Shown here in pieces: positions 2,543 through 37,339 of a DNA stretch of 64,000 nucleotides. Position 1 is the first letter of the stretch. Every line of letters begins with the position of its first letter. Below the pieces are notes generated by a model that saw only the letters and a program-made list of their open reading frames with translations, had not been told where the DNA came from and ran no database searches. The position numbers and the translations under genes were made by a program. Where the stretch lies: assembly GCA_026162565.1 (NCBI GenBank), contig JAOEIQ010000002.1, forward strand, positions 186,001 through 250,000. The letters run 5' to 3'. The DNA comes from Flavobacteriaceae bacterium NBU2973 (GTDB taxonomy: Bacteria > Bacteroidota > Bacteroidia > Flavobacteriales > Flavobacteriaceae).

Positions 2543-4987
2543 TTAGTTTTTTGCTAATCTAATGATATCTGCAAAAAGTCCAGAGGCAGTTACATCAGCA
2601 CCAGCACCAGCACCTTTTATAATCATTGGTTGTTTAGGGTAGCGATCTGTATAAAACATAACAATATTGTCTTTACCTTCCAGATTATAAAACGGATGAT
2701 TTTGAGGTATTTCTTCTAAACCAACTTTAGCTTTTCCGTTACTTAAATTTGCTACGTATTTGAGTCTGCAATTTTTTGCTTTTGCAGATGCATACATTTT
2801 TTGAAAATGTGCTTCATCATTTTTCAATGATTCATAAAACTCTGAAACCGTTTTACTTTTCAAGTTATTAGAAGTTAAAAATGAATCGTTACTAACATCT
2901 TCTAGACTCATATCAATCCCGCTCTCTCGAGCAAGAATCAGTATTTTTCTTGCAACATCAATTCCGCTCAAATCAATTTTTGGATCTGGTTCTGTATAAC
3001 CTTCTTCTTGAGCCTTTTTAACTATATCATGAAATGTATTGGTATCATTAAAATTATTAAAAACATAGTTTAATGTCCCTGATAATACAGCTTGTATAGA
3101 ATGTATTCTATCTCCTGAATTTATTAAGTGATTTAATGTGTCAATTACTGGCAAACCAGCACCAACATTTGTCTCGAATAAAAATGGCGCATTGTATTTT
3201 CTAGATAAACCTTTTAAATTTTTGTAATTTGAAAGCTCACTAGAACAGGCAATTTTATTACAGGCTACAATGGCAATATTGCTTTTTAGATAGTCAGGAT
3301 ACATATTTGAAATCTCATCATTTGCAGTAACATCAACAAAAATACTATTGCGCAAGTTCAAAAAATTTATGGTTTTTAAAAAACCAGAAAGGCTTGCTTT
3401 TTCTCCATTTTTTAATTGAGCTTTCCAATCTTTTAAAGGAATGCCATTTTCATTAAAAAGCATCTTCCGAGAATTTGACAAACCAATAACTCGAAGATTA
3501 ATATTTAATGTTGTTTTTAAATAGTGTTTTTGCTGTTTTATTTGTTCTACCAGACGCTCTCCAACATTACCAACTCCAGTAATAAATACGTTTAATTGTT
3601 TTGTTTTTTCTTCAAAAAATCGCTCATGTAATGTATTTAAAGCTTTTTTTACATCCTTTTCATCAATTACGGCTGAAATATTTTTTTCTGAGGCTCCTTG
3701 AGCGATAGCTCTAATATTAATATTGTTTTTTCCAAGAGTACTAAACATTCTGCCACTAATACCTTGATGACTTTTCATATTATCTCCAACTAAAGCGATA
3801 ATTGATAAATTAGTCTCTACTAAAATGGGATTAATTTTTTTTAATGCGATTTCATTTTTAAAGGTATTATCTATTGCAAGTTTTGCTTTTTTAGAATCAA
3901 TCGAATTAATACCAAAGCATATAGAATGCTCTGAAGATGCTTGAGTTATCAAAATGATATTTATTTTCTCATTTGCTAATGTTTCGAATAAGCGTTTAGA
4001 AAATCCTGGAATTCCAACCATTCCATTACCTTCTAAAGTTAATAATGCAATAGTATCTATATGACTAATACCTTTTACTGCTGTTTTGTTGCCATTTTTT
4101 GTTTCAGAAATTAATGTTCCAGTTGCTTCAGGTTCCAAAGTATTTTTGATAATTATAGGAATATTCAAATCCAATACTGGCTGTACAGTTGGAGGATATA
4201 AAACTTTAGCACCAAAATGCGATAACTCCATGGCTTCTTGATAGGATAACTTTTCTATTGGGAAGGCATTTTTTACTACTTTAGGATTAGCAGTATACAT
4301 ACCACTCACGTCGGTCCAAATTTCAAGCTGATCTACTTTTAATGCAGCAGCAACAATTGCAGCTGTAAAATCGGAGCCACCACGACCAAGGGTTGTTTGT
4401 TCACCATCTTTAGAATTAGCAATAAATCCAGGTAGTATTGTTATTTGTTGTTCAGCGTTGCTGAAATAGTCCTTAATATTTTTATTTGTTTGTTTATACT
4501 CTACTTCTGCATTAGTATAATTGTTATTAGTAATTATTAATTGTTGAGAGTTTTTTCGCTGTACATTCAGTTTACGGTCAAGCATTGTTTCCGCAATAAT
4601 ATAAGACGATAATAATTCACCGAAACTCACTAATTTATCTGAAGTTTTTGGAGACAACTCATTGATAAGGTATATGCCATCTAATAAATCTTTTAATTCT
4701 TTTAACTTATTTGTTATAGCATTTTGATTGCTTTTATTTTGCTTCGGAATTAATTCTTTTACAATATCGAGATGCTTTTTCTCGATGGCAATAAATATTT
4801 TTTTATATCCAACATTTTTGGATTTTGCTAAATGGCCAGCCTCTAATAATTTATCTGTAATACCACCAATAGCCGAAACCACACATATAATTTTAGACTG
4901 TTTAGAATACCTATCTAAAATTTGTATTACCTGATTTATATTTTTTGCGGAACCAACTGAAGTTCCTCCAAATTTTAAAACTTTCAT
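2543..4987 (-). CDS. thrA: Bifunctional aspartate kinase / homoserine dehydrogenase
   Basis: This 814-residue fusion performs the first and third steps from aspartate to homoserine. The aspartokinase domain begins KFGGTSVGSA (residues 5-14) and has TTLGRGGSD (198-206). Two ACT domains follow (about 310-455), the usual site of allosteric inhibition by threonine. The NAD(P)-binding loop of homoserine dehydrogenase, GVGNVG, is at 471-476. Length and order match ThrA/MetL-type fusions. First gene of the thr operon. The ATG at 4987 has a short leader region upstream with a TACTTTTG box (5178-5185, minus strand) and a possible leader ORF. Confidence 0.97.
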   Translation of the reverse strand: MKVLKFGGTSVGSAKNINQVIQILDRYSKQSKIICVVSAIGGITDKLLEAGHLAKSKNVGYKKIFIAIEKKHLDIVKELIPKQNKSNQNAITNKLKELKDLLDGIYLINELSPKTSDKLVSFGELLSSYIIAETMLDRKLNVQRKNSQQLIITNNNYTNAEVEYKQTNKNIKDYFSNAEQQITILPGFIANSKDGEQTTLGRGGSDFTAAIVAAALKVDQLEIWTDVSGMYTANPKVVKNAFPIEKLSYQEAMELSHFGAKVLYPPTVQPVLDLNIPIIIKNTLEPEATGTLISETKNGNKTAVKGISHIDTIALLTLEGNGMVGIPGFSKRLFETLANEKINIILITQASSEHSICFGINSIDSKKAKLAIDNTFKNEIALKKINPILVETNLSIIALVGDNMKSHQGISGRMFSTLGKNNINIRAIAQGASEKNISAVIDEKDVKKALNTLHERFFEEKTKQLNVFITGVGNVGERLVEQIKQQKHYLKTTLNINLRVIGLSNSRKMLFNENGIPLKDWKAQLKNGEKASLSGFLKTINFLNLRNSIFVDVTANDEISNMYPDYLKSNIAIVACNKIACSSELSNYKNLKGLSRKYNAPFLFETNVGAGLPVIDTLNHLINSGDRIHSIQAVLSGTLNYVFNNFNDTNTFHDIVKKAQEEGYTEPDPKIDLSGIDVARKILILARESGIDMSLEDVSNDSFLTSNNLKSKTVSEFYESLKNDEAHFQKMYASAKAKNCRLKYVANLSNGKAKVGLEEIPQNHPFYNLEGKDNIVMFYTDRYPKQPMIIKGAGAGADVTASGLFADIIRLAKN

Positions 4988-30048: not shown

Positions 30049-31299
30049 ATGAGAGCTCGTTCAACATTCTCACTTCTGTTCTGGGTTACTGCTTCAAGAA
30101 CAAAAAACAATCAAGTTCCAATTTACGCACGAATTACTGTAAATGGTAAAAGGGTAAATATCAGCCTTAAGCGTAAGGTTTTTATTTCTGACTGGGATTC
30201 TAAACTCGGTAAGGTTAAAGGAAACAAACAAAACGCTAAACTGTTAAATCAGTATTTAAACCAAATTCGTAATAAAGTTTACGAAGCATATGAGGAATTA
30301 TTAAGCGAAAACAAATTAATCACTTCCCAAGCTATTAAAGCAAGATTTTTAGGAGAAGATGAAAAATCCAGAAGTTTAATCGAGTTGTTTGATTATCACA
30401 ACGAATTGATGGAGCAAAAGCTTCATAAAGATACTATGAAGCATTACAGGACTACTCAAAAATATCTTAAGCAGTTCCTGGTAAAAAAGTATAATACAGA
30501 TAATTTGTTTTTAAACTCACTAAACTATGCATTTATAGTAGATTTTGAATATTACTTAAAAGCATATCAACCAACAGACCACCAACGTAAGATTAGTAAT
30601 AATACAGCTATGAAACATTTACAGCGGTTACGAAAAATGGTTACAATGGCTTTTCATTTAGAGTGGATAGATAGAGATCCATTTGTTAGGTTTAAATCTA
30701 AATTTGAAAAAAGAGAAAGAGAATTTTTATCTACTACTGAACTACAATCATTAGAAGAATTCTCAAGTGAAGTAAATCGTATAAATATTGTAAAAGACTT
30801 ATTTATCTTCAGCTGCTATACAGGTATTTCATTTATTGATATGAATGGTTTAACCAAAAATAATATAGTTAAAGGAATTGATGGTAATGATTGGATTGTA
30901 ACGAAAAGACAAAAAACTAAAACGCCAGTTAAGATACCTATACTTCAACAAGCAAAGGAATTGATAATTAAGTACCAAGACAATCCAAGAGTAATTACCG
31001 CTAATAGTTTATTACCTATTTTATCCAATCAAAAAATCAATAGCTACCTAAAAGAAATTGCAGATATATGTGGGATTAAAAAGAATTTAACCTTTCATAT
31101 GGCAAGACATACTTTTGCAACTACAATCACTTTAAGTAACGGTGTGCCTATAGAAACGGTTTCTAAACTACTTGGCCATAAAAAAATAGCAACTACCCAA
31201 ATATATGCTCGTGTGATAGAAAAGAAAGTAAGTGAGGATATGCGAAAATTGAGTACAGCCTTATCTCAAAATAAGATGAAAAGAACTATAAATAATTGA
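30049..31299 (+). CDS. Tyrosine recombinase / integrase, CTnDOT-like family
   Basis: A 416-residue site-specific recombinase with an AP2-like arm-binding N-terminus, a SAM-like core-binding domain (about 105-205) and a catalytic domain. The catalytic HxxR is H350-R353 in FHMARHTFA, the third box His is H377 in LLGHKKIATTQ, and the nucleophile is Y386 in QIYARV. The first box reads TGIS (258-261), so the usual catalytic Arg I is replaced by Ser, as reported for IntDOT of CTnDOT. It is the first gene inside attL and points away from the tRNA. Confidence 0.94.
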   Translation: MRARSTFSLLFWVTASRTKNNQVPIYARITVNGKRVNISLKRKVFISDWDSKLGKVKGNKQNAKLLNQYLNQIRNKVYEAYEELLSENKLITSQAIKARFLGEDEKSRSLIELFDYHNELMEQKLHKDTMKHYRTTQKYLKQFLVKKYNTDNLFLNSLNYAFIVDFEYYLKAYQPTDHQRKISNNTAMKHLQRLRKMVTMAFHLEWIDRDPFVRFKSKFEKREREFLSTTELQSLEEFSSEVNRINIVKDLFIFSCYTGISFIDMNGLTKNNIVKGIDGNDWIVTKRQKTKTPVKIPILQQAKELIIKYQDNPRVITANSLLPILSNQKINSYLKEIADICGIKKNLTFHMARHTFATTITLSNGVPIETVSKLLGHKKIATTQIYARVIEKKVSEDMRKLSTALSQNKMKRTINN

Positions 31300-31396: not shown

Positions 31397-32197
31397 CTAC
31401 TTATTAATCGTTCGCAATCCTTTTTTGATAATATAAGCCGTCTCTTTAGTTGGTGATTCTTTTTCCCATTTACTACAAATAGATTTTACCCAATCAGGTT
31501 GAGACTTACTGGCGTCATTAAGCCAATTACTTACGGAATCACGTACATATTTTGAGGCATCAGATTTTAATGGTTCAATAAGAGAAATTCCTTTTTCTGG
31601 ATATTCTTGAAAAGCTTGAATTTTCTTTGTCCATACACCGATAGGACGTAAAGACTCAACTGCAAAACGTCTGATATTCTCATCTTCATCTTTTGTCCAT
31701 TTAGACAAAATATCAATAGCAGTATCTAGGTCTTCAATCATTCGTTCTTTACTAGCAAAAATAACAACCTCTCTTACACCAAAATGAGTATCTGCTGCGT
31801 AAGGTTTCATAGCATTAATTAAATCTGCGACTGAATCAAAATGAGTACTCTCTGCCCAACAAGACCAACATCGTACTAAATCTGATGTATACTCTTTTAA
31901 TACATCATATATAGAATTATCTGAAGTTAGCAATCCTAAAGTTTGACCTATCATTTTTGTATTACTATTGGCTGTAGGCTTCTTTTGAGCATTTACAGCA
32001 ACCTCAAAATCGGAATACCAGTTTTCTTTGCTTAAATCTTTTAAAACTAATTTTAGAAGTGACAACTGGTCTGTTGCCAACCATTCCATTAAATTTCTAG
32101 TTTCTATCAAGCCTTTATTCAAGTATTCGATTACTTCTGGATTAAGGTCTTTTAAGCTTCTTGCGCCCTTTCTGTTTTTAACATGTTCTGGTATCAT
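31397..32197 (-). CDS. HEAT-repeat protein, AlkC/AlkD-like DNA alkylation repair family (probable)
   Basis: 266 residues, mostly paired helices as in HEAT-like DNA glycosylases of the AlkC/AlkD superfamily. ENIRRFAVESLRP followed by LIEPLKSDASKYVRDSVSNWL resembles the conserved AlkC region. I cannot confirm the catalytic acidic and aromatic residues. If correct, it excises alkylated bases without base flipping. It overlaps the upstream 118-residue gene by 4 bases (ATGA), so the two are translationally coupled. Confidence 0.7.
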   Translation of the reverse strand: MIPEHVKNRKGARSLKDLNPEVIEYLNKGLIETRNLMEWLATDQLSLLKLVLKDLSKENWYSDFEVAVNAQKKPTANSNTKMIGQTLGLLTSDNSIYDVLKEYTSDLVRCWSCWAESTHFDSVADLINAMKPYAADTHFGVREVVIFASKERMIEDLDTAIDILSKWTKDEDENIRRFAVESLRPIGVWTKKIQAFQEYPEKGISLIEPLKSDASKYVRDSVSNWLNDASKSQPDWVKSICSKWEKESPTKETAYIIKKGLRTINK

Positions 32198-32550
32198 AAG
32201 TTTTTTTTTCTTGGTTTCGGAATATTCCCAATTAAATCACTATTGTCTTTAATAAGTTGTGCTATTTGTTGAGCACGCTCTTCAAAATTAGGTTCATCTT
32301 CGTGAAGCAAAAGCCACGTTTTTATTTTATACGTTTCTAAATGTCGTAATTCAGGAATCAATGTTTTTAAAGCTTCGTGATGTTCAGTTTTAGTACCTAC
32401 CCAAATGCCATTATCTACAGGGTTTTCTTTTTTTTGTCGTGTAGCCAAAATAATTTTATTACCGTAATAAATAGCCACATTGCCAAACATTTTCTTTGTT
32501 CTAATTGGTAATGGATAAAGAAACTCTAAAATAAAATCGTGTGGAATCAT
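32194..32550 (-). CDS. Small hypothetical protein, TfoX/MmcQ-like
   Basis: 118 residues starting MIPHDFILEFLYPL. KMFGNVAIYYGNKIILATR resembles the start of TfoX_N-like domains (KMFGG.. with following strands), and the C-terminal helix ends in a basic tail (PKPRKKNL). No function is assigned to this group. It is the first gene of a two-gene minus-strand unit with the AlkC/AlkD-like gene. Confidence 0.6.
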   Translation of the reverse strand: MIPHDFILEFLYPLPIRTKKMFGNVAIYYGNKIILATRQKKENPVDNGIWVGTKTEHHEALKTLIPELRHLETYKIKTWLLLHEDEPNFEERAQQIAQLIKDNSDLIGNIPKPRKKNL

Positions 32551-32592
32551 TCTATATTTTCTTCAAAATTAAATCGATTTTTATATTTTACT

Positions 32593-32643
32593 TTCCCATT
32601 CACTACAAATTTCAAAGATTAATTGTTATTCTAACTACATTTG
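32593..32643 (+). promoter_or_regulatory. Promoter and upstream motif of the TPR-LytTR regulator gene
   Basis: TTCCCATTCACTACA (32593-32607), 28 bases, then the perfect -7 box TACATTTG (32636-32643). The ATG begins only 5 bases after the box, so the message is predicted to be leaderless or nearly so. The same 15-mer at the same distance from a -7-like box precedes the 34489 operon. Confidence 0.65.
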
Positions 32644-32648
32644 TATTA

Positions 32649-34355
32649 ATGACAAAAAGACTTGCCATATTACCACTTCAAACTAAAAGCGCGAATATTA
32701 AATTCTTGGTTCCTATTATTCAAGAAGTGCTAATATCTAACATTAGTGCTGAAGCATCCTATGTGGTTATTTCAAAAGATTCAACAAATACAAGTTCAGA
32801 AACCAGTTCTGATTTAAAGATTGTAGGAAAGCAGCTTAATGCTAATTATTTGGTTACTGGAAGCCTTTCAGAGAAAAAGGGTTTAATTGAAGTAACACTT
32901 AAATATAATAACCTCAAAAAAGATAAACAGAAACAAGTAACATTTAAAGTTGATAAAAATGATTTATTCAAATTAGGAGAGTTATCACTAACGCACCTTA
33001 AGAAAATGCTTCGCATTTCTAATGATGAGATTGTAGTTAATGCTAAAATTCAAAATCCTGAAATTCATCAACTGTACGTTCTAGGTAATTATCATTTTAA
33101 TAGATGGACACAAGGCAATGTAAAATTAGCAGTTGAGTATTATGAAAAAGTAATCAATGCCGAACCAGACTTTGCGCCAGCATATCTAAAACTCGCCAAA
33201 TGTCTGGTGTTTCAGGCAGGTCGTGGATATGAACTACCCAAAAACGTATATCCTCAAGCAAGAGAACGGATTGAAAAGGCATTGGAAATCAATCCAAACT
33301 CTGGAGAAGCTATTATCGATAAAAATCTAATTGATTTTTTCTATGAGTTGGATTGGACTAATATTTACAACAGTATAGAAAAAGGTTTAGAGAATTATGT
33401 TGATGCTAGTGAAGCCTATCAACAATTATCATTTTTTTGGTATGGTTTAAAGGAATATGATGCTTCTTTAGATGCCTTATATTCTGCATTGGAATTCGAC
33501 CCAATATCCACAAGTATTCTAAATATGATAGGCGATGTACAATTGAGTGCAAAAAGATATGAAGATTCTGAAAAAACATTCTTATCTATTTTAAAGATGA
33601 TACCTAATGATAATTCCTCTTTAGAAAATTTAATGTACCTAAACTCATTACAAGGTAGCGAACGTAAAGCGACTTCTTATTATAACAAATTAAAAAAAGC
33701 ACTTCCGAACAGTCTAGATTTTACACCAAGAATGGGGTACTTCTTTGGAAAATTTGGAATGGATGATGAAGCAGAATTGTATCTGAAATATTTTAGAGAT
33801 TTATCAAAAAAAGAACCTAATAGAGTACATCATAATTACTTTGCACAGGTATATTCTGGTCGTAATGATTGGGAACAAACAATGAATTATATTGAATGTG
33901 GCTGGAGAGCGCGTACCGGAATTCTCTTTATCCTTACAGACCCACAATTAGAACCTTTATATAAATGGAAACGTTACCAGCAACTAGTTTCTGAAATTAA
34001 ATTACCTCAAGACGTTGAGGATAATAACTATATCACGCTACGTACAGATATTAAGGAAACACTTCGTATTAATCTAAACACATTGCTCTTTCTTAAAGCA
34101 GAAGACAACTATACAAGACTCTATTTTTTCCAAAACTTTAGATTAGAACAGAAATTAGTCCGTGCAACCTTAAAAACAGTAACACCGCAACTGCCCGAAT
34201 ATTTCTCTCGTATTCACAAATCGTATATCATAAATATGCATCAACCGTTTCAACTATTTGGCAACGCAAAAAAAAGATATATCACACAAAATCAACACGA
34301 TACAGAGATTCCCGTGAGTCGAAGTTTTGATGTATCTTCATTAGTTATTGCTTAA
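32649..34355 (+). CDS. TPR-LytTR transcriptional regulator with TolB-like N-terminal domain
   Basis: 568 residues starting MTKRLAILPL. A start at 32541 would run through the promoter and is rejected. Residues about 1-125 resemble the TolB/FlgO-type domain fused to many regulators (LAILPL..., VGKQLNANYLVTGSL). Residues about 130-455 are TPR units (NPEIHQLYVLGNYHFNRW, AVEYYEKVINAEPDFAPAYL). The C-terminus (about 470-565) is a LytTR DNA-binding domain with TLLFLKAEDNYTRLY and FSRIHKSYIINM. No receiver domain is present, so it probably senses through the N-terminal or TPR part. It likely controls itself and the next operon through the shared motif. Confidence 0.88.
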   Translation: MTKRLAILPLQTKSANIKFLVPIIQEVLISNISAEASYVVISKDSTNTSSETSSDLKIVGKQLNANYLVTGSLSEKKGLIEVTLKYNNLKKDKQKQVTFKVDKNDLFKLGELSLTHLKKMLRISNDEIVVNAKIQNPEIHQLYVLGNYHFNRWTQGNVKLAVEYYEKVINAEPDFAPAYLKLAKCLVFQAGRGYELPKNVYPQARERIEKALEINPNSGEAIIDKNLIDFFYELDWTNIYNSIEKGLENYVDASEAYQQLSFFWYGLKEYDASLDALYSALEFDPISTSILNMIGDVQLSAKRYEDSEKTFLSILKMIPNDNSSLENLMYLNSLQGSERKATSYYNKLKKALPNSLDFTPRMGYFFGKFGMDDEAELYLKYFRDLSKKEPNRVHHNYFAQVYSGRNDWEQTMNYIECGWRARTGILFILTDPQLEPLYKWKRYQQLVSEIKLPQDVEDNNYITLRTDIKETLRINLNTLLFLKAEDNYTRLYFFQNFRLEQKLVRATLKTVTPQLPEYFSRIHKSYIINMHQPFQLFGNAKKRYITQNQHDTEIPVSRSFDVSSLVIA

Positions 34356-34400
34356 ACGTTTCCCGTTTACTTCAAAAAATAACTTTCTTTTTATTTCCTT

Positions 34401-34451
34401 TTCCCATTCACTACATAAAAAAAATTGAGACACTTTCTGTATACATCTTTG
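34401..34451 (+). promoter_or_regulatory. Promoter and upstream motif of the 34489 operon
   Basis: TTCCCATTCACTACA (34401-34415) is identical to the copy upstream of the LytTR regulator and is again 28 bases before a -7-like box, CATCTTTG (34444-34451). Both boxes continue into TATT. The imperfect -7 box would fit an activator-dependent promoter. Confidence 0.6.
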
Positions 34452-34488: not shown

Positions 34489-35283
34489 ATGAACCGTATT
34501 AAATTTTTAACAATGACACTATTGTTGGCCTCGTTTACAGCGTTTGCCTCTTGCGAAAACAACAATAAAAAACCAAAAGTAGTAGCAGAGAATACTACTG
34601 AACCTGTAAAAACTGAAGTAAAAAAAGCAGACATTACTTTTAAAACAGGTAAACTTATTGAAGTAGCCTTACTTACTGTAAAACCAGATGGACAAAAAGC
34701 GTTTATGGAAGAATACTTTCCTAAAGTAATGCCAGTAGCAATGCCTTATGGAGCGAGACCTATTGCAAGTTTTGCAGTTACAAAAACTGTTATGGGAAAC
34801 AAGCCTAACCAGATGGTTGTTTTCTTTGAGTGGGAAAGCCTAGAACAAAAGCGTGCTTTTGAAAGGAATCCTGAATATTTAAAGCTTCGAAACATCAGAG
34901 ACAATGCGCTTTCTTTTTTAAGTCAAGGCTATTTTCAAGTTGAAAAAGATGTCACCGTAAACCTGTCTTCGGACAAAACCTATGACTTTGCAGGCATTTT
35001 TATCAACCCTGAAAAAGCTAATCTACTTCAAGAATATTTTCAAGCAGTTTTACCTACAGCTTCAAAACCTGAATTTGGGTACACACCAATTGTAAATCTT
35101 AATCCATATCAAGGTGCAAATGACCAAAACTATCATCCATCAGTTATTGCTTTTGCAGAGTGGAAAGGTGGTGTAGATTCTCAAGAACGATTTGAAAAAA
35201 CAAAAGTATTTCAAGACAATGTCGCTAAACGAAGTGCAGGAGCACCTTATATAGATGTATTTCACATTGTACCAATACTATAA
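34489..35283 (+). CDS. Lipoprotein with two ferredoxin-like (DUF1330/ABM-type) domains
   Basis: 264 residues. MNRIKFLTMTLLLASFTAFASC carries a lipobox at ASC. Two similar halves follow (about 50-160 and 165-262): EVALLTVKPDGQKAFMEEYF... and AGIFINPEKANLLQEYF..., each ending with an FFEWESLEQ / AFAEWKGGVD strand. This is the dimeric alpha-beta barrel seen in antibiotic biosynthesis monooxygenases and DUF1330, here as an internal duplication. Activity is unknown. The AhpD-like gene follows by 28 bases in the same operon. Confidence 0.65.
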   Translation: MNRIKFLTMTLLLASFTAFASCENNNKKPKVVAENTTEPVKTEVKKADITFKTGKLIEVALLTVKPDGQKAFMEEYFPKVMPVAMPYGARPIASFAVTKTVMGNKPNQMVVFFEWESLEQKRAFERNPEYLKLRNIRDNALSFLSQGYFQVEKDVTVNLSSDKTYDFAGIFINPEKANLLQEYFQAVLPTASKPEFGYTPIVNLNPYQGANDQNYHPSVIAFAEWKGGVDSQERFEKTKVFQDNVAKRSAGAPYIDVFHIVPIL

Positions 35284-35311: not shown

Positions 35312-35917
35312 ATGGAAACATTAGAAAAGAAAAAAACAGTAAGAGGGTTTGATTTAGAATTACAAGAAAACCCATCAAAAGAAGTGCAAGCCGTATACGA
35401 TTGGTATAATGAAATTTTTCAGTTCGTGCCTAATCTTGGAAAATTGTTGAGCAATTCAGACGCCGCATTGTTATCATACACGCATATGCAATGGCATCTT
35501 GAAAAGTTGGGCAATTTAACGCCAGAAGAAAACAATATTGTACAATTGACTATAGCCGTAGAAAACGAATGTAAATATTGCACTGCTGGGCATACGCTCG
35601 CTGGTAAAGTGCTTTTCGGTTCTGCTGAAGAAGACCTAAACGCTTTACGTAATGGAACTGCATTAAGTAATGAAAAATTCAATGCATTACACGAGTTTGC
35701 AAAGGCAGTTTATAGTACAAGCGGACGCGTAAGTGATACTGTGCTTGAAAACTTCAGAAATGCTGGTTACAACAATGCACAGGCTTTAGATGTCATCACT
35801 AACATTTCGGCTAAAGTATTATCAAATCTCGCGAATCAATTGGCCATAAATGAAGTGGATGAACCAATACAACCTTTTGCTCAAGGACTTGAGGATTTTT
35901 CTTCAAACTATAGGTAA
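35312..35917 (+). CDS. Carboxymuconolactone decarboxylase / AhpD-like protein
   Basis: 201 residues of all-helical AhpD type. The redox centre is ENECKYCTAGH at 84-94, giving the ExxxCxxCxxxH arrangement (C87, C90, H94) of alkylhydroperoxidase D-like proteins. Probably reduces peroxides or reactive metabolites. It shares an operon with the ABM-like lipoprotein, under the promoter with the LytTR-associated motif. A strong terminator follows. Confidence 0.88.
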   Translation: METLEKKKTVRGFDLELQENPSKEVQAVYDWYNEIFQFVPNLGKLLSNSDAALLSYTHMQWHLEKLGNLTPEENNIVQLTIAVENECKYCTAGHTLAGKVLFGSAEEDLNALRNGTALSNEKFNALHEFAKAVYSTSGRVSDTVLENFRNAGYNNAQALDVITNISAKVLSNLANQLAINEVDEPIQPFAQGLEDFSSNYR

Positions 35918-35941
35918 AAACTACAGCTAACTATATTTAGA

Positions 35942-35986
35942 AATAATAGTGATTTGAAAAAAAATCAAGTCACTATTATTTTTTAT
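35942..35986 (+). terminator. Terminator of the ABM-AhpD operon
   Basis: AATAATAGTGA / TCACTATTATT is an 11-bp outer stem with an inner TTGA/TCAA pairing, followed by TTTTATTTT. It starts 25 bases after the AhpD-like stop. Confidence 0.88.
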
Positions 35987-36214
35987 TTTACTTTCCAATA
36001 AGTAGTGATTTTCGATACAATCCTAAAATACACACGCAAAACTATTTTAAAATGCCATAAAAAGTAATCATTTAAAAAAAATAAATACAAGCTCTAACTA
36101 ATTAAATCGAAGAACTCACGCGAGAGTTATATGCAAAATGGTAATATACTTTTCAATTTTACGTAATGGCATCAATATGGATTTATTTAATTTAGTTTAA
36201 CTTTCCAATTTAAT

Positions 36215-37339
36215 ATGATATGGATTATAGTGAGAATGCTGTTATATGATTGGTCATCTTTAATTCTATTTAGTGGTATTATTAATGCCATTATAGCAAT
36301 AGTTTTTTTAATTAAAAATAGTAGCCGCTATAAACCTAAATATGCGTTATGGGTTAATGTGTTTTTGTTTTGTGTTATATTAATTCTTTTTGAGAGAATT
36401 ATTAGGTTTTCAAATTTAGAGACTCACTATCCTAAACTCTTATTTATTACAAGTCCCTTATTCTTCTTTATTCTTCCTTTGGTTTATGTGTTTCAAAATC
36501 AGTTAAATGGTAAGGTCAAGTATTGGTATGTGCATTTTATTTTTCCGATACTAATGCTGTTATTGTTTATGCCAACTATTTTAATGAATGACAATGATAA
36601 GTTGAATATGTACCATGAGGATGGCATAAATGACCCAATTTGGATAGTACTATTGTATCTTTTGTTTGCCATTTATTATTCTGCCAAAACCTTTATAGCT
36701 AATAAAAAACATAAAGTCCATTTGCTGAATACGTCAGCCAATAATGATATTGAGTTACAGCTATTTTCCAATCAATTGGTTTTTTGGGCTAGTATATGCA
36801 TCATTGCCATTCCAGTTTCATTATTGGTACAATATGCTGATTATAATACTGAAGTTTTAGACAAATGCTTGTTCATTATCTTTTCCTTAATTCCACATTT
36901 TATATTGATTTCTATATTCAACATTAAAACTCTCGAAACCGCTAACGAGATACAAATTGAAGAAAAGCAAAGGAGTGTTATTGAACATGAGAATCTGAAT
37001 ACTTCTAAATCTGAACTTACTGCTTTTATGATGAAACATCAACCTTACTTAAGTCAAGATTTGGACTTGCAGACATTGGCTAATTTGATAGGTTGGAATA
37101 GGTCCAATCTTTCTATGGTTATTAATAAAGGCTTTCATAAAAACTTTTATGACTTCATTAATGAATATCGTCTCGAAGCTGTTGTTGAGAAATTGAATAA
37201 CGGTGCCCACAAAGAGTACTCATTAGATTATATTGTTAGCGAGTGTGGTTTTAAGAGTTATGTATCGTTTTACAGAATCTTCAAAAGAATAAAGAAAACG
37301 TCACCAAAGGAGTATTTAAAGCATCTGAAAAATCAATAA
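36215..37339 (+). CDS. Membrane-anchored AraC-family transcriptional regulator
   Basis: 374 residues. About seven hydrophobic helices fill residues 10-240 and an AraC HTH_18 domain ends the protein (about 275-374: LDLQTLANLIGWNRSNLSMVI, YIVSECGFKSYVSFYRIFKRI). Such 7TM-AraC proteins are common in Bacteroidota and presumably sense an envelope or medium signal. A start at the ATG at 36236 is also possible. The serine hydrolase gene follows and has a dyad over its -7 box, which makes it a likely target. Confidence 0.88.
   Translation: MIWIIVRMLLYDWSSLILFSGIINAIIAIVFLIKNSSRYKPKYALWVNVFLFCVILILFERIIRFSNLETHYPKLLFITSPLFFFILPLVYVFQNQLNGKVKYWYVHFIFPILMLLLFMPTILMNDNDKLNMYHEDGINDPIWIVLLYLLFAIYYSAKTFIANKKHKVHLLNTSANNDIELQLFSNQLVFWASICIIAIPVSLLVQYADYNTEVLDKCLFIIFSLIPHFILISIFNIKTLETANEIQIEEKQRSVIEHENLNTSKSELTAFMMKHQPYLSQDLDLQTLANLIGWNRSNLSMVINKGFHKNFYDFINEYRLEAVVEKLNNGAHKEYSLDYIVSECGFKSYVSFYRIFKRIKKTSPKEYLKHLKNQ

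Follow-up and report, generated by a model that had tools for sequence, protein, structure and literature searches.

A 15-bp word, TTCCCATTCACTACA, that recurs at fixed distances from promoter boxes in a 64,000-nucleotide stretch of Flavobacteriaceae bacterium NBU2973 (hereafter, the window) is read here, with a probability of roughly 80%, as the operator for the product of the TPR-LytTR gene at 32649-34355: judged from the sequence, this protein would act as an activator both at its own promoter (P1) and at the promoter of the following operon (P2), and would also act on the divergently oriented operon. LytTR regulators and their feedback are already known; for the variety that bears TPRs, and for its operator and geometry, our literature searches returned no description, and the matches listed for CCCATTCACTAC concern eukaryotes by title. 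To our knowledge, operators in Bacteroidota are poorly known. At the locus described here a regulator, its likely operator, a fixed promoter geometry and candidate targets emerge together from sequence, and a single protein together with three short DNA fragments would suffice to test the proposal.

The earlier note on this DNA had pointed out that the TPR-LytTR gene and the operon after it are preceded by the same motif at the same spacing, and this was borne out. Exact copies of TTCCCATTCACTACA lie on the plus strand at 32593-32607 (predicted operator O1) and 34401-34415 (predicted proximal operator O2b), each exactly 28 nt ahead of a -7-type box and in flanks that differ between the two; 100 dinucleotide shuffles of the window give an expectation of 0 exact copies by chance. 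With up to three mismatches allowed, 8 occurrences are seen in the window versus 2.2 expected. Two additional copies had been missed in the earlier note. One of them, TTCCCGTTTACTTCA at 34360-34374 on the plus strand (predicted distal operator O2a), is located 41 bp upstream of O2b, and the two together form a 27-nt direct repeat (78%, spacing 41). The other, at 31463, differs from the word by a single mismatch; we rejected it as a site because it lies within coding sequence (C-S-K-W-E, on the other strand), lacks a -7 box at 27-29 nt and has no conserved counterpart in the orthologs. A shorter related string that the note had seen recurring near 35990 was dismissed as well: the 11-nt string TTTTACTTTCC does have exact copies at 32586 and 35986, and its 6 matches with at most one mismatch versus 4.4 expected amount to chance. 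Its 5′ part is not conserved in orthologs, and the copy near 35990 sits at the end of a terminator-like repeat.

The sigma-A -7 box of Bacteroidota, TAnnTTTG, is placed at -12 to -5 in the available part of PMC9723704, the source of the consensus used here. P1 (box TACATTTG, 32636-32643, plus strand, 28 nt after O1) and the promoter of the divergent operon (box TAATTTTG, 32564-32571, minus strand, 21 nt from O1) match this consensus in full, and the -7-like box of P2 (CATCTTTG, 34444-34451, plus strand, 28 nt after O2b) is one letter off, with CA replacing TA; the same CATCTTTG is found in 4/4 close loci. Relative to the predicted starts, O1 spans approximately -55 to -41 of the regulator promoter and approximately -48 to -34 of the divergent promoter, i.e. 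the -33 region of the latter. A -33 TTG-type element is part of the sigma-A promoter of Bacteroidota. By reading the close-clade and distant-locus sequences, we found no conserved TTG at around -33 in either P1 or P2. If the box is taken to occupy -12 to -5, as in the accessible text of PMC9723704, transcription from P1 is predicted to start at 32648, immediately before the ATG at 32649. The regulator message had been described as nearly leaderless, and the computed leaders agree: 1 nt in the window and in two orthologs, and 0 nt in the third (L039). The accompanying remark that both boxes continue as TATT is correct for the window, but this detail is not conserved in orthologs.

The regulator itself (568 aa, plus strand) combines TPRs at approximately residues 150-410 with a LytTR domain (PF04397) at residues 470-559, which scores 42.5 bits versus a Pfam gathering cut-off of 22.6. 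FhRhHRS, given as the LytTR DNA-contact motif in the available part of PMC4227749, is kept as FSRIHKS, with R521 and H523 invariant in all nine rows of alignment A1, one row of which, L009, begins late (the start codon of L009 is not settled). A search of solved structures with the regulator matched only TPR proteins. Behind P2 lies an operon of two likely target genes, the first encoding a putative 264-aa lipoprotein with a DUF1330 domain (34489-35283, plus strand; E 2.4e-8) and the second a CMD/AhpD-like protein of 201 aa (35312-35917, plus strand) that falls just below the Pfam cut-off. The earlier note had proposed that the LytTR protein controls an ABM-AhpD detoxification pair; the operon is retained as a likely target, but its first product is assigned to DUF1330, with the ABM match sub-threshold (0.01), and the AhpD likeness of its second carries the reservation just given. 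A solved-structure search with the DUF1330 alignment returned no match. An inverted repeat with a T-rich tail at 35929-35993 (plus strand, 29-nt arms, 79%) is likely the terminator of this operon. On the minus strand, the divergent operon encodes a small protein of 118 aa (32194-32550; weak TfoX_N match, E 0.056), which adjoins the regulator in 3/3 orthologs, followed by a HEAT/DNA-alkylation-repair-like protein of 266 aa (31397-32197). Farther downstream, the gene for an AraC-type regulator (HTH_18) at 36215-37339 is followed by those for a beta-lactamase-fold protein and a YCII protein.

A scan of genome contigs returned three close orthologs of the regulator, in Aquimarina litoralis (L037, 84%), Winogradskyella haliclonae (L038, 90%) and a Winogradskyella MAG (L039, 78%), and all three have the same genes flanking the regulator on either side. 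With W. haliclonae as the best match, the source organism probably belongs to Winogradskyella. Absence of the motif upstream of orthologs had been named beforehand as a refuting outcome; we looked for it, and the motif is present in 3/3, with one site before P1 and a pair of sites before P2 whose members are 41, 42 and 41 bp apart. With the window included, the word thus stands before P1 at 4/4 loci, with 14 of the 15 columns of O1 invariant, and the pair stands before P2 at 4/4 loci, O2a being kept at 41-42 bp from O2b. The gap between site and box is 28 nt in seven of the eight close-clade promoters and 27 nt in one, and on the other side of O1 the divergent gene has a minus-strand TAnnTTTG box, separated from the site by exactly 21 nt at all four loci. 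In L039, P1 and the regulator are separated by a DUF2652 gene; the site remains at the promoter, not at the regulator gene. This DUF2652 gene (L039:2938-4004), which heads the regulator operon, is predicted to be fully leaderless, and its reading frame is interrupted in the MAG. Close to the locus in the window lies an ORF (30049-31299) that looks by eye like a tyrosine-type integrase; the distribution of regulator orthologs over Aquimarina (84%) and Winogradskyella (78-90%) suggests transfer.

Distant TPR-LytTR proteins, 20-22% identical over A1, are encoded in five genomes of the same order (G094, G017, G353, G396 and G171, with the loci L008, L009, L042, L043 and L044, respectively), and two others lie outside the order (G822, L079; G963, L081). 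In the gap that separates the regulator from the following gene, the word is present in 5/5 distant loci within the order and in 0/2 outside it (5/7 overall). The claim of a predicted LytTR operator before the regulator's own gene and the next operon finds strong support in this comparison: the site is kept in 3/3 close orthologs and in 5/5 distant loci of the order, though the word was not found in L079 and L081. The distance from site to box is 28 nt in L008, L009 and L044 and 29 nt in L043; L042 has the word and no box at 27-29 nt. Using a scoring matrix that was built solely from the 12 close-clade sites and that includes the box, we obtained scores of 27.3 for L008, 24.2 for L009, 26.5 for L042, 20.1 for L043 and 21.1 for L044, the 28-nt gap in L008 belonging to a proximal copy, GTCCCATTGTCTACA, with a score of 26.8, and the copy scoring 27.3 lying farther upstream. 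As a control, the best score over the whole length of each of 93 other loci, which partly overlap, of which 85 have any match and of which approximately nine contain other LytTR genes, did not exceed 22.4 (mean 15.0), a control maximum that L043 and L044 do not reach. When each gap was shuffled with dinucleotides preserved, the observed score was reached in 0, 1, 0, 2 and 6 of 5000 shuffles (L008, L009, L042, L043 and L044), counts that are no blind test since the gap downstream of the regulator was chosen after the motif had been seen there.

Upstream of the site there are secondary copies of the word, at 41 bp and again at 59 in L008 and at 20 bp in L009, in L044 and, weakly, in L043. These periods of 20 bp, and of 41-42 bp at P2 and in L008, can be set against the layout given for LytTR sites in the available part of PMC4847170, i.e. 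pairs of 9-11 nt repeats with spacers of 11-13 nt; at P1, we found no convincing second half-site 20-22 bp from O1. Autoregulation, as claimed earlier, is supported at the four loci of the close clade only; at none of the five distant loci does a clear site, accompanied by a box, precede the regulator's own gene. One candidate upstream of the L043 regulator, TTCCCATTCATAACA, was rejected because it falls within the last part of the preceding gene and is not accompanied by a box.

The genes directly behind the distant sites vary. A DUF1330-like gene occupies this position in three regions (L107/L042, L110/L009 and L109/L044), an alpha/beta hydrolase gene in L108/L043 and a gene for an SRPBCC protein in L111/L008. 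A 242-277 aa relative of the DUF1330 protein of the window is present in all five regions, either directly behind the site or deeper in the cluster; it exceeds the Pfam gathering score in L109 and L111 but falls short of it in L108, and in L107 and L110 it is recognised solely by pairwise comparison with the window protein (E 3e-14 and 1e-15). A looser spaced pattern has two matches in the G396 genome, both in successive gaps of the regulator's gene cluster, before the hydrolase gene and before an SRPBCC gene. Across the five distant genomes, two of its six matches fall elsewhere, one in coding sequence and one in a terminator-like stretch.

The degenerate word TTCCCRTTNACTWCA has four exact matches in the 3.05 Mb genome of the organism itself, all of them within the 3 kb of the locus, and the strict spaced pattern is found in one of 397 family genomes, namely this same genome; on these grounds the regulon looks local. 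With up to two mismatches, TTCCCRTTNACTWCA matches at 113 places versus 85 for a reversed control, so these matches are mostly noise; 30 of the 113 places were examined. Four matches with one mismatch elsewhere in the genome were rejected as sites, all being in coding sequence. Further matches at C3, C10 and C22 were inspected; the ones at C3 and C10 are coding, and L006 is without a listed ORF of 90 aa.

Several known LytTR systems offer points of comparison. The LRS systems (HdrRM/BrsRM and the LRS-like operons of Bacteroides), as described in the available part of PMC6193735, are similar to the present locus in their LytTR regulator, predicted positive feedback and sites just upstream of the promoter. 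In B. theta, the proximal LRS repeat ends 34 nt before the -7 box, TATCTTTG, while here TTCCCATTCA ends 33 nt before the box, and TCC and ATTCA are common to the B. theta repeats and the word (PMC6193735, available part). However, LRS sites are repeat pairs with an 11-12 bp spacer, whereas here P1 has a single 15-bp site and P2 a pair spaced by 41 bp; the regulator here also carries TPRs, and no membrane inhibitor gene of the kind described in that text is seen. Judged by family, none of the neighbours (DUF1330 lipoprotein, CMD, TfoX-like, HEAT) is an LRS-type membrane-protein partner.

AgrA is a phosphorylated response regulator without a TPR part, and the letters of its site are unlike the word. 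In Staphylococcus aureus, AgrA binds as a dimer to direct repeats whose centre is near -60, switches on promoters that have suboptimal elements and controls its own operon (PMC4227749, available part). The LytTR domain of E. coli YpdB reads a direct-repeat pair, GGCATTTCAT, in which the second site is bound with lower affinity and in dependence on the first; unlike the protein here, YpdB is a response regulator, with other letters and another target (PMC4847170, available part). The rhlI site of Pseudomonas AlgR, CCGTTCATC, shares 6/9 letters with CCATTCACT here, the other three being transitions, but AlgR is a response regulator from another phylum acting on another promoter type, and the likeness is one of nine letters only (PMC4064291, available part).

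Since the word and its spacing are kept beside distant relatives of the regulator while the downstream genes change, the word is very probably the regulator's landing site. The LytTR domain would bind it at approximately -55 to -41, in promoters with a sigma-A -7 box and without a conserved -33 element, and the bound regulator would most likely be an activator aiding RNA polymerase. Activation at P1 and P2 is proposed because the Bacteroides LRS repeats, whose distance from the -7 box is almost identical, are interpreted as activating sites (PMC6193735, available part). At P1, the regulator would drive its own near-leaderless message in a positive feedback, and at P2 the two sites, 41 bp or four helical turns apart on the same face, would drive expression of the operon for the DUF1330 lipoprotein and the CMD/AhpD-like protein; signals are likely received by the TPR part. 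An effect on the divergent operon is proposed because of the stretch that O1 covers there: binding would probably also repress this operon, co-activation being less likely. Repression is put forward less surely than activation, on the basis of CoxC, which sits on the -35 box, where O1 lies at the divergent promoter (PMC11347149, available part).

It is conceivable, albeit unlikely, that the regulator binds the word and represses P1 and P2, in a negative feedback released by a signal. CoxC, a LytTR repressor, indeed has repeats that overlap the -35 box (PMC11347149, available part), and O1 lies over the -33 region of the divergent promoter; at P1 and P2, however, the word ends upstream of the -33 region, the B. 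theta repeats that end at nearly the same distance are read as activating (PMC6193735, available part), and the lack of a conserved -33 TTG in both promoters, together with the weak box of P2, argues against repression. A still less probable explanation is that another regulator, e.g. an unlinked factor or the product of the AraC-type gene at 36215, binds the word and controls the whole locus, with the TPR-LytTR gene merely one of its targets. In its favour, LytTR binding to the word is a prediction and P1 lacks a clear second half-site; against it, the AraC gene adjoins the locus in none of the three orthologs, the word tracks the TPR-LytTR gene across loci that have no other common regulator that we could see, and the exact word is found nowhere else in the genome. 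Conservation contradicts the notion that the two copies reflect chance or a recent local duplication without function, which we consider very improbable: O1 and O2b have unlike flanks, 14 of 15 columns at P1 are kept across four loci and the distant loci retain both word and spacing, even if the one-mismatch copy in nearby coding sequence (31463) indicates that the word can arise without function.

The operator reading, with the regulator as an activator, may be extended, tentatively, to a whole family. The TPR-LytTR proteins could constitute an undescribed family of one-component regulators in Flavobacteriales, with an operator of approximately 15 bp that is locked 28 nt before the -7 box, is repeated on the same helix face (20/41 bp) and governs secreted DUF1330 proteins as well as SRPBCC, hydrolase and CMD enzymes, and a cyclase-like partner may supply the signal. 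Such a partner is hinted at by the DUF2652 gene of the L039 operon, whose product may be cyclase-like, and by a weak Guanylate_cyc match in the L079 fusion; if this is true, the module would respond to a small molecule in a nucleotide-linked manner. The 28-nt distance to the -7 box could be used to seek targets of other LytTR proteins in Bacteroidota.

The L079 fusion (L079:976-3258) is a 760-aa protein with the Guanylate_cyc match at its N-terminus (E 7e-4, below the cut-off), TPRs and LytTR, encoded divergently to an SRPBCC gene. Another pairing of cyclase, TPR and LytTR is seen in L010, where a gene for a cyclase-like TPR protein (657 aa, by eye; L010:946-2919) stands beside a convergent LytTR response-regulator-like gene (2916-3599). 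In L109, the distant locus lies near ORFs that by eye are intron-RT-like and integrase-like.
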